Shown here: positions 53,541 to 55,707 of the stretch, in pieces
Layout of the letters: each line of letters opens with the position of its first letter
Position numbering within the stretch: position 1 is the stretch's first letter
NCBI GenBank assembly: GCA_002256485.1
Contig: NNSG01000002.1
Location: 124,001-188,000 of the forward strand
Length of the DNA stretch: 64,000 bases
Source: Fidelibacterota bacterium 408169
GTDB taxonomy: Bacteria > Fidelibacterota > Marinisomatia > Marinisomatales > TCS55
Direction of reading: 5' to 3'
Program-made: the position numbers and the translations under genes
The notes under the pieces: model-generated
The model's input: only the letters and a program-made list of their open reading frames with translations
What the model was told of the DNA's origin: nothing
Databases searched by the model: none

Positions 53541-53620
53541 TAATTTAGAAAGGAATAAAGATATGAGGTGTGAGTGTGTCTCCGCCGTCTTTTTCGCCTT
53601 CCGTATTTTAATATATTCAG

Positions 53621-53770
53621 TCAGGCAACTAGGACGGCGAGTCCAATAATCACTAGAATAAGCAAATTAATTAATAAAGAATTAATTTGCAGAGAATCAA
53701 TATCAATACCGAAATCGAGCGCAAAATTGCGACTGCTGCTAATTTGTTTTACTGGTAATGTATTATCCAT
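53621..53770 (-). CDS. Candidate leader peptide of the ilv-leu operon
   Basis: A 49-codon ORF ends 139 bp before ilvD. Residues 32-49 read 'LLINLLILVIIGLAVLVA', 14 of 18 being Leu, Ile or Val, the three products of the operon it precedes. This is the composition of attenuator leader peptides such as that of E. coli ilvG. The final codons (CTC GCC GTC) can pair with GACGGC at 53587-53582 or GGCGA at 53594-53590, offering alternative structures. An in-frame ATG at 53776 is an alternative start. The competing view is a small single-helix membrane protein. No strong ribosome site is visible. Confidence 0.55.
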   Translation of the reverse strand: MDNTLPVKQISSSRNFALDFGIDIDSLQINSLLINLLILVIIGLAVLVA

Positions 53771-53802
53771 AATCATTCTAGTTATCTAAGTTCTCAATTG
53801 GT

Positions 53803-53889: not shown

Positions 53890-55479
53890 TTATTCCTGAT
53901 AATCTTCTAATTCCCGCGCAGATGGGTCTAAAACATCGGTCCATTTAGGCATCCAAAAATGTGGAATTAATTTTTCATTTTTACCGAAGTAAGACTCAAA
54001 CACTTTTCGATAATAATAACTCTCTTTTAAAACAGGAGTACAATGAGTGATCCTTACACTCTCCTGCTGGAATTCTTCATCACTTATCTTTTGGTCGACA
54101 AATGATTGAATAATGTGGTGCCACGATTTTTTTATTGAACTTACCCCATCTGAAAAAGCGCACTTCCTCCGCCACAATACATCCTCCGGTAAAAGTTTTT
54201 GATTTTCAAAAGCTTTTCTTAACAAATGTTTTTCCAAACGACGTGTACCATCTAATCTTTTCAATTCAGCCGGAATTGAAAGGTAATATTTTACAAAAAC
54301 CTTATCCAAAAAAGGTGTCCGTGCTTCCAACCCATTGGAACTGATGCTTCGATCAGAACGAAGGACGTCAAAATAATGAATTTCCTTAACCAGCCTTTCG
54401 CTCTCTTTTTGGAGTTCAACTGGAGTTGGGGCGTTTCGTAAATAAACATACCCACAGCACACTTCATCGGCGCCGTCTCCATTGAAAATCACTTTACAGT
54501 TTGAATTTTCAGTTATGAATTTGGAAACAAGGTAATTACCTACACTCGCCCTTACCGTTGTAGTATCATAGGATTCAATATTGTAAATCACTTTTTCAAT
54601 TGCAGATAAAAATTCCTGCTCTGAAACTTCAATCTGGTGATGATTTGTACCTAAATAATCGGCAACATGTTGAGCATAATCAAGATCCACACTGCCGGAG
54701 AGGCCTATTGAAAATGTGTTAAGTTTTGGACCATTATAATATTTTGCTACCAAGCTTGAGATTAAGCTGGAATCCAATCCCCCGGATAGCAAACAACCAA
54801 TTTCCCTTTCTGCCATGAGACGTTTTTTTACAGCTTCTATCAGTAAAATCCTAATTTGATTACATATTTTATTTTCCGTGTTTTCTTTGATATGTTCTCC
54901 ATTATAATGGAAATAAGGAATGAACCTATTTGGAGTATCTGAACACCACCACGTTCCCGGTGCGAATGGCTTTATTTCGCTACAATGGTTTATAAGAGGT
55001 TTAGCTTCTGAAGCAATCATAATTTCATTTTCATTCTCTCCGATAAATCCAGGACGGACACCCATGGGATCCCGCCCTGCAAACAGTTTACCTGTTTTAG
55101 AATCATGAATGACAAACATAAATACTCCATCTAATTCTTTAACTGTTTTTTCAATCCCGAATTCTTCAAACATGAATAAAATAATTTCACAATCCGATCC
55201 TGATTCTAAATGGAAATCGTATTTTTCAGCGAGCTTCTTGTAATTATAAATTTCACCATTGCAAATTAAAGTCAGGGAATTCTCTTTCGGGTGCTTCATG
55301 GGTTGGTCACCCAATTCCGTCGTACCCATAATCGCCAACCGGTGGAATGCAAATAAAACATTGTTTCCAATCATTTCGTGATGAGTGTTTTCAGGTCCGC
55401 GATAATTAATTAAATTTATATCCTTGGCCAATGATTCCCAACTATGTTTGCTGCCTTTATACAAAAATATTCCGCACAT
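53890..55479 (-). CDS. asnB: Asparagine synthetase (glutamine-hydrolysing)
   Basis: The N-terminal glutaminase domain starts with Cys2 ('MCGIFLYKG') and has 'NYRGPENTH' and 'LICNGEIYNYKKLAE'. The synthetase domain has the ATP-pyrophosphatase loop 'LLSGGLDSSLISSLV' and 'NGDGADEVCCGYVYL'. At 529 residues it is like E. coli AsnB. It makes asparagine from aspartate, glutamine and ATP. It is preceded by an Asn-codon leader ORF and an intrinsic terminator, so its expression very probably responds to charged tRNA-Asn. Confidence 0.92.
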   Translation of the reverse strand: MCGIFLYKGSKHSWESLAKDINLINYRGPENTHHEMIGNNVLFAFHRLAIMGTTELGDQPMKHPKENSLTLICNGEIYNYKKLAEKYDFHLESGSDCEIILFMFEEFGIEKTVKELDGVFMFVIHDSKTGKLFAGRDPMGVRPGFIGENENEIMIASEAKPLINHCSEIKPFAPGTWWCSDTPNRFIPYFHYNGEHIKENTENKICNQIRILLIEAVKKRLMAEREIGCLLSGGLDSSLISSLVAKYYNGPKLNTFSIGLSGSVDLDYAQHVADYLGTNHHQIEVSEQEFLSAIEKVIYNIESYDTTTVRASVGNYLVSKFITENSNCKVIFNGDGADEVCCGYVYLRNAPTPVELQKESERLVKEIHYFDVLRSDRSISSNGLEARTPFLDKVFVKYYLSIPAELKRLDGTRRLEKHLLRKAFENQKLLPEDVLWRRKCAFSDGVSSIKKSWHHIIQSFVDQKISDEEFQQESVRITHCTPVLKESYYYRKVFESYFGKNEKLIPHFWMPKWTDVLDPSARELEDYQE

Positions 55480-55505: not shown

Positions 55506-55542
55506 AAAAAAAAACCCCCAAGAATAAATTTCTTGGGGGTTT
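55506..55542 (-). terminator. Attenuator terminator in front of asnB
   Basis: On the minus strand AAACCCCCAAGAA, loop ATTTA, TTCTTGGGGGTTT, then six more T. The stem is 13 bp and perfect. It ends 27 bp before the asnB start codon, on the same strand, so it must be read through to express the gene. Its 5' arm contains the CCCCC that can instead pair with GGGGG inside the leader ORF. Confidence 0.88.
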
Positions 55543-55549
55543 ATAATTA

Positions 55550-55584
55550 AAGCTTTACCAAGTGATTACAAAGCTTCGCCCCCA
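55550..55584 (-). promoter_or_regulatory. Antiterminator/pause structure of the asnB attenuator
   Basis: TGGGGG (55584-55579, within leader codons 30-32) can pair with CCCCCA in the terminator's 5' arm (55539-55534). Between them AAGCTTT (55576-55570) and AAAGCTT (55556-55550) form a 7-bp hairpin that would stack inside. A ribosome stalled early in the Asn run leaves these free, so the antiterminator forms. A ribosome reaching the stop codon covers the G run, so the terminator forms. Confidence 0.65.
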
Positions 55585-55673
55585 CTTAAATTATTATTGT
55601 TATTGTTATAACAAATGTTCAACTGAATCATCTTATAAAGAGGTTTCCACCAGAAAATGTTTTTTAAATCCAT
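55566..55673 (-). CDS. asnB leader peptide with six consecutive Asn codons
   Basis: A 35-codon ORF whose residues 23-28 are six Asn in a row (AAC AAT AAC AAT AAT AAT, 55607-55590), followed by 'LSGGEAL' and TAA. Asn also occurs at residues 5 and 19. An internal ATG (Met15, 55631) would give a 21-residue peptide closer to classical leader length. If transcription starts near 55672, that inner start is likelier. The ORF ends 24 bp before the terminator hairpin upstream of asparagine synthetase. Function as a regulatory, not structural, peptide is inferred from this layout. Confidence 0.8.
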   Translation of the reverse strand: MDLKNIFWWKPLYKMIQLNICYNNNNNNLSGGEAL

Positions 55674-55678
55674 GACTA

Positions 55679-55707
55679 ATGTTATGAATAAAAACAAATG
55701 AAATCAA
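55679..55707 (-). promoter_or_regulatory. Putative promoter of the asnB leader
   Basis: On the minus strand TTGATT (55707-55702), 17-bp spacer, TAACAT (55684-55679): four of six matches at each element with ideal spacing. It lies between the proC stop and the leader ORF, predicting a start near 55672. It would make asnB independent of proC, though read-through from proC is also possible. Confidence 0.4.

Follow-up and report, generated by a model that had tools for sequence, protein, structure and literature searches.

An asparagine-codon leader upstream of asnB in Candidatus Neomarinimicrobiota and its probable role as a ribosome-mediated attenuator

Amino-acid leader attenuators have been described for only a few amino acids, mostly in Proteobacteria and Actinobacteria. 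Elsewhere, Asn genes are controlled by T-boxes and by AsnC; the Asn T-box leaders of Firmicutes sense tRNA-Asn charging and thereby control read-through of Asn genes. In the Asn T-box the RNA binds the tRNA itself, whereas in the asnB leader described here a translating ribosome would be the sensor. In the model described for classic attenuation, the leader ORF carries codons for the pathway's product, the antiterminator and the terminator exclude each other, and a ribosome finishing at the stop codon blocks the antiterminator (PMC1183508). The asnB leader has the same build as the classic trp, his, leu, ilv, thr and phe leaders of Proteobacteria, and its stop codon is placed by the same logic. 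It differs from them in having Asn codons and asnB as the gene behind them, in coming from an unrelated phylum, in probably being leaderless, and in having an antiterminator with a separate hairpin inside it that contains the stop codon.

None of the Rfam amino-acid leader models scored over its gathering threshold (His_leader, 31.5 bits against 49; Phe_leader, 20.7 against 55). The best of these sub-threshold matches, His_leader (RF00514), arises from the general terminator layout; the asnB leader has Asn rather than His codons and stands before asnB rather than his genes. The initial annotation knew of no described Asn leader-peptide attenuator, and none was found in the published literature, as far as our incomplete coverage, with older surveys partly outside it, extends; nor was any attenuation literature found for Neomarinimicrobiota. 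The type of mechanism is well known, and its Asn specificity and the phylum appear to be new. We conclude, with a probability of about 0.9, that this leader is a ribosome-mediated transcription attenuator that senses charged tRNA-Asn, asnB being transcribed when the charged tRNA is scarce.

The leader, its RNA elements and the gene behind it

The leader ORF lies between proC and asnB on the minus strand of the window, the 64-kb stretch of DNA that was analysed, and all features below are on that strand. It spans 55566–55673, has 35 codons and encodes MDLKNIFWWKPLYKMIQLNICYNNNNNNLSGGEAL, ending at a TAA stop; homologous leaders were found in 21 further genomes. As first proposed, codons 23–28 are six Asn codons in a row (AAC AAT AAC AAT AAT AAT, 55590–55607), an assignment that rests on a pattern count and on the relatives. 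The pattern (AAY)6 has a single occurrence in the window and did not turn up in any of 100 shuffles, so the Asn run is not due to chance. In each of the 22 leaders, 6–12 of the final 22 codons specify Asn (mean 7.7). Within these last 22 codons AAT and AAC stand at 120:50, a mixture which argues that what is kept is the residue Asn and not a DNA repeat.

Inside the ORF, downstream of the Asn run, lies element A (UGGGGG, 55579–55584), the 5' arm of the antiterminator, whose spacing is kept in all 22 leaders. The proposal that a G run in the ORF can pair with the C run of the terminator was borne out: UGGGGG (55584–55579) is complementary to CCCCCA (55539–55534). Element C (AAACCCCCAAGAA, 55530–55542), assigned from sequence, terminator scan and spacing, can pair with A to make the antiterminator or with D (UUCUUGGGGGUUU, 55512–55524), the 3' arm of the terminator. 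Because C is common to both, A:C and C:D are mutually exclusive. The C:D terminator stem is a perfect 13-bp helix with a 5-nt loop (55542–55512), is followed by a T run in the DNA (U run of the intrinsic terminator, 55506–55514, from sequence and the terminator scan), and is 98% paired across the 22 sequences. A scan of 500 bases, in which 0.3 terminator-like sites would be expected, picked out this stem and U run, which the initial annotation had also described, and no other. From the end of the U run to the asnB ATG (55479) is 26 nt, and the gap of 27 bp first given is corrected accordingly.

A further hairpin, missed in the initial annotation, pairs 55577–55569 with 55557–55549. Its 5' arm, element B (GAAGCUUUG, 55569–55577), and its 3' arm, element B' (UAAAGCUUU, 55549–55557), were identified by an arm-permutation duplex test, and the UAA stop lies in the loop. 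All 22 leaders have the order Asn codons, A, B, stop, B', C, D, U run. In every one, the end of the G run is 8–10 nt from the stop codon, and the C run starts 28–33 nt past the start of the stop codon. Each leader has 4–10 Asn codons placed where a stalled ribosome would leave the G run free.

The product of asnB (53890–55479, 529 aa) is asparagine synthase B. It scores 506.7 bits against NF006949 (cut-off 499) and 367 bits against TIGR01536 (cut-off 267.1), both of them curated models of glutamine-hydrolysing asparagine synthase, and no second such match occurs in the genome. An asparaginyl-tRNA synthetase (AsnRS) is also encoded in the genome (510 bits, cut-off 342.6), so free Asn would charge tRNA-Asn directly. 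An indirect route to Asn-tRNA lacking AsnRS, which would have undermined the attenuator reading, was rejected because the AsnRS gene was found. The proposal that asnB is the target of an Asn attenuator is thus upheld as to the identity of the gene, by two curated models, and the presence of AsnRS; the response to charging is a prediction.

Upstream of the ORF are a -35 element, TTGATT (55702–55707), and a -10 element, TAACAT (55679–55684), the latter 5 nt before the leader ATG. The arrangement TTG(A/G)NN (TTGATT/TTGGNA), 17 nt, TAANAT, 5 nt, ATG is shared by most leaders in the window's own clade, which has eight. The -35/-10 pair of the initial annotation therefore stands on the clade comparison; a single-sequence consensus scan did not list it. 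In another leader group TTTGAC...TAGGTTT is found at a similar distance from the leader ATG. Because these promoter-like elements stand just before the ATG, the transcript is predicted to begin at the leader ATG or within about 3 nt of it, and the leader ORF is probably leaderless. There is precedent for a leaderless leader peptide in Sinorhizobium meliloti trpL, whose transcript starts at the leader-peptide ATG (PMC7298713). There the start was mapped and the control is by Trp over trpE(G), whereas in the asnB leader the start is a prediction.

Conservation and compensatory change among relatives

In a scan of named genomes, the close relatives of AsnB were from Candidatus Neomarinimicrobiota (= Fidelibacterota), which are marine and uncultivated. 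A first covariance model, built from 11 relatives, gave 22 strong matches at E < 1e-8 in 130 genomes of the order, of which 11 were new to the model. Each of the 22 sits directly upstream of asnB and has an Asn-rich leader. A second covariance model, used on 245 genomes of the phylum, returned the same 22 and, with weak matches inspected, no further Asn leader. A comparison of relatives had been set beforehand as a refuting test for the initial annotation; the Asn run was found in 22 genomes and the stems show compensatory change. Seven other asnB genes in this subfamily (G012, G091, G116, G120, G121, G124, G125), all with an intact 5' flank, have no such leader. On the AsnB tree, the deep branches of which are poorly resolved, leader presence needs three changes and fits one gain plus two losses. 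No convincing Asn-rich short ORF was found within 600 nt upstream of 64 non-Neomarinimicrobial asnB loci (Bacteroidota, Clostridium, Bacteriovorax and others). At one leader-bearing locus (L004, genome G013, 1250–1495), about 160 nt with an inverted-repeat stretch lies between the attenuator and asnB. The flanks on its two sides match each other in inverted orientation (ACTCTTTGATAAACCTA / TAGGTTTATCAAAGAGT), and the stretch looks like a small inserted element.

The stop-codon hairpin B:B' is the best-covarying part of the leader. It occurs as five unrelated sequence classes (AAGCUUU/AAAGCUU, CUGUGU/ACACAG, UCUC/GAGA, CCCGU/ACGGG and relatives, GUGUAA/UUACAC), and across leaders the stop codon is in the loop or at the loop edge. 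With arms paired to their own partners the duplex energy was -173.5 kcal/mol, against -94.8 +/- 11.7 kcal/mol when permuted, and the own-partner value was reached in 0 of 20000 permutations; the G and C runs were left out of the arms, and this test, like the other shuffle and permutation tests, ignores relatedness among leaders. When sets were drawn with one representative per B class, the true pairing ranked alone at the top of the 120 possible ones in 254 of the 324 sets. In the model alignment, both-side changes in stems were seen in 53 cells, versus 17.5 in shuffled alignments and 0–8 with the partner slid. Because this alignment had been built to fit the structure, the B:B' permutation test is cleaner than the covariation count.

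Another helix, Z, adjoins the G run in 14 leaders, with an own-partner energy of -125.5 against -94.8 +/- 6.4 permuted (0 of 20000). It is missing from the window's own clade, and perhaps it has a role in pausing or stacking. On the plain alignment RNAalifold paired the G run with the terminal part of the ORF; that pairing was rejected, as per-sequence duplexes and covariation favour Z, B:B' and C:D. In sum, this leader has a cognate-codon ORF, an intrinsic terminator, a predicted antiterminator that excludes it, spacings suited to a ribosome, and compensatory change.

Predicted switching and alternative explanations

In the proposed mechanism, RNA polymerase would make the leader and a ribosome would translate the leader ORF behind it. 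With ample Asn-tRNA, the ribosome would pass the Asn codons and reach the stop codon, where it would cover A and melt B:B'. C could then pair only with D, and transcription would terminate before asnB. With scarce Asn-tRNA, the ribosome would stall in the Asn run and leave A free; A:C, with B:B' stacked inside, would form before D is made, which would forestall the terminator and allow asnB to be transcribed.

Folding predictions for the 22 leaders are consistent with both outcomes. With the ribosome stalled at the first Asn codon and D still to be transcribed, the predicted probability of A:C had a mean of 0.95 and a lowest value of 0.60; with the ribosome at the stop codon, that of the terminator was 1.00. 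In the window leader, by spacing, stalls on the first four of the six Asn codons would leave A fully free, if the ribosome has the standard footprint and covers 13 nt starting at the A-site codon. The claim that codon positions fit both stalling and completion therefore extends to the family, as the geometry holds in 22 of 22 leaders. When the full transcript was folded at equilibrium with the ribosome stalled, the terminator probability was about 1.0 in 21 of 22 leaders and 0.80 in one. Equilibrium thus favours the terminator in all 22, and the choice to antiterminate must be kinetic, made during transcription.

Could the terminator act constitutively, for example by ending the proC transcript, with the short ORF a small protein gene or a chance occurrence and with no switching at all? 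The terminator is strong alone, and proC is upstream on the same strand. Under such a scheme, however, the G run in the ORF, the covarying stop-codon hairpin and the fixed spacings would be needless, and the Asn run would hardly be kept in 22 genomes and beside asnB only. Promoter-like elements are conserved just before the leader ATG. We regard constitutive termination as highly improbable. Quite improbable, too, is a translational attenuator or one of general starvation, in which any slowing of translation, and not a shortage of Asn specifically, frees A and opens the gene. Antibiotic-responsive leaders do respond to general translation stalls, and with the geometry found here a stall anywhere upstream of the G run would have this effect; but in the stall zone only one type of residue, Asn, is conserved, and it matches the gene's product, and in the parallel leaders of the phylum the residues are those of the respective pathways.

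That a T-box or an AsnC-type repressor controls asnB for Asn, with the leader ORF incidental, we consider the least probable of these alternatives. Both devices control Asn genes elsewhere, but Rfam gave no T-box at gathering score in the window and none among the sub-threshold matches in the leader, and attenuator parts fill most of the interval between the promoter-like element and asnB. A DNA-binding regulator of the asnB promoter is possible as an addition to the attenuator. On the Asn attenuator reading, the leader-bearing bacteria very likely make asparagine only when their ribosomes are short of Asn.

Other leaders in the phylum and outlook

The weak matches of the covariance model at other genes (E from 1e-5 to 0.1), read singly at fetched loci, were of two kinds. 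Some were rejected as chance terminators (L138, L139, L141–L144, L146, L174, L176–L180, L183, L184). Others resemble true leaders for other amino acids. Leaders before trpE (L133 in G015, L140 in G049, and L190–L194) are Trp/Tyr/Phe-rich ORFs, for example MNNMNTKIYYSWYWFFSREGVL, with GGGG-type terminators, and look like aromatic attenuators. Leaders before hisG have His runs HNHHHH (L145, G104), HHHHH (L185, G006) and HRHHH (L186, G020), with a terminator in two of three. At argG (L181, G091; L182, G062; L187, G011), Arg/Lys-rich short ORFs such as MKIITRNHAIERRRSIIFGGT are followed by terminators, making a possible and apparently undescribed Arg attenuator. A Lys/Arg leader plus terminator stands before LysW-carrier-like and LysX-ligase-like genes, judged so by eye, in L134, L135 and L136 (G061, G062, G033), and is clearest in L136 (MSKKNNRPLARNKNIARRAKMLSVGVTV). 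In L137 (G048) a leader MKNFNYYYFYFRCKGTIGA and a terminator precede a chorismate-mutase-like gene, a possible Phe/Tyr attenuator. In L170 (G198) a threonine-synthase-like gene is preceded by a short ORF rich in Met and Cys (MNIKKMAYNNQNNTRCVDMGIMMCLMCMYSSDTVGVEWLL) and by a strong terminator; these residues have no obvious match to the pathway.

The window itself has a second leader-like ORF, MIMDNTLPVKQISSSRNFALDFGIDIDSLQINSLLINLLILVIIGLAVLVA (53600–53785, minus strand), which is Ile/Leu/Val-rich, lies between asnB and ilvD, and ends about 140 nt from ilvD. Relatives retain the pairing GACUCGCCGUC...GACGGCGGAGAC at this leader, and L157 shows a compensating change in it (CGCUGUC/GACAGCG). 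The leader is followed by no U-run terminator; a C-rich unstructured tract is found instead. This leader is perhaps an ILV attenuator with termination of the Rho type. The hisG and argG models had no match in the organism's own 95%-complete genome and the trpE model matched only below its cut-off, which suggests that the pathways for making His, Arg and Trp may be absent.

The similar leaders at trpE, hisG, argG, lysW and ilvD support routine use of attenuators in this lineage. We give somewhat better than even odds to the wider proposal that in Neomarinimicrobiota a large part of amino-acid biosynthesis is controlled by ribosome-mediated attenuators transcribed as leaderless mini-mRNAs, including apparently undescribed ones for Asn (asnB) and Arg/Lys (argG, lysW), and with the ILV leader of ilvD maybe of Rho type. 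Being short and self-contained, the asnB leader could be moved into E. coli for testing. An Asn-specific leader would add an amino acid to the list of attenuators and, beside T-boxes and AsnC, a third way to couple asparagine synthesis to the charging of tRNA-Asn. It would also open nutrient sensing in a phylum of uncultivated ocean bacteria to direct testing.
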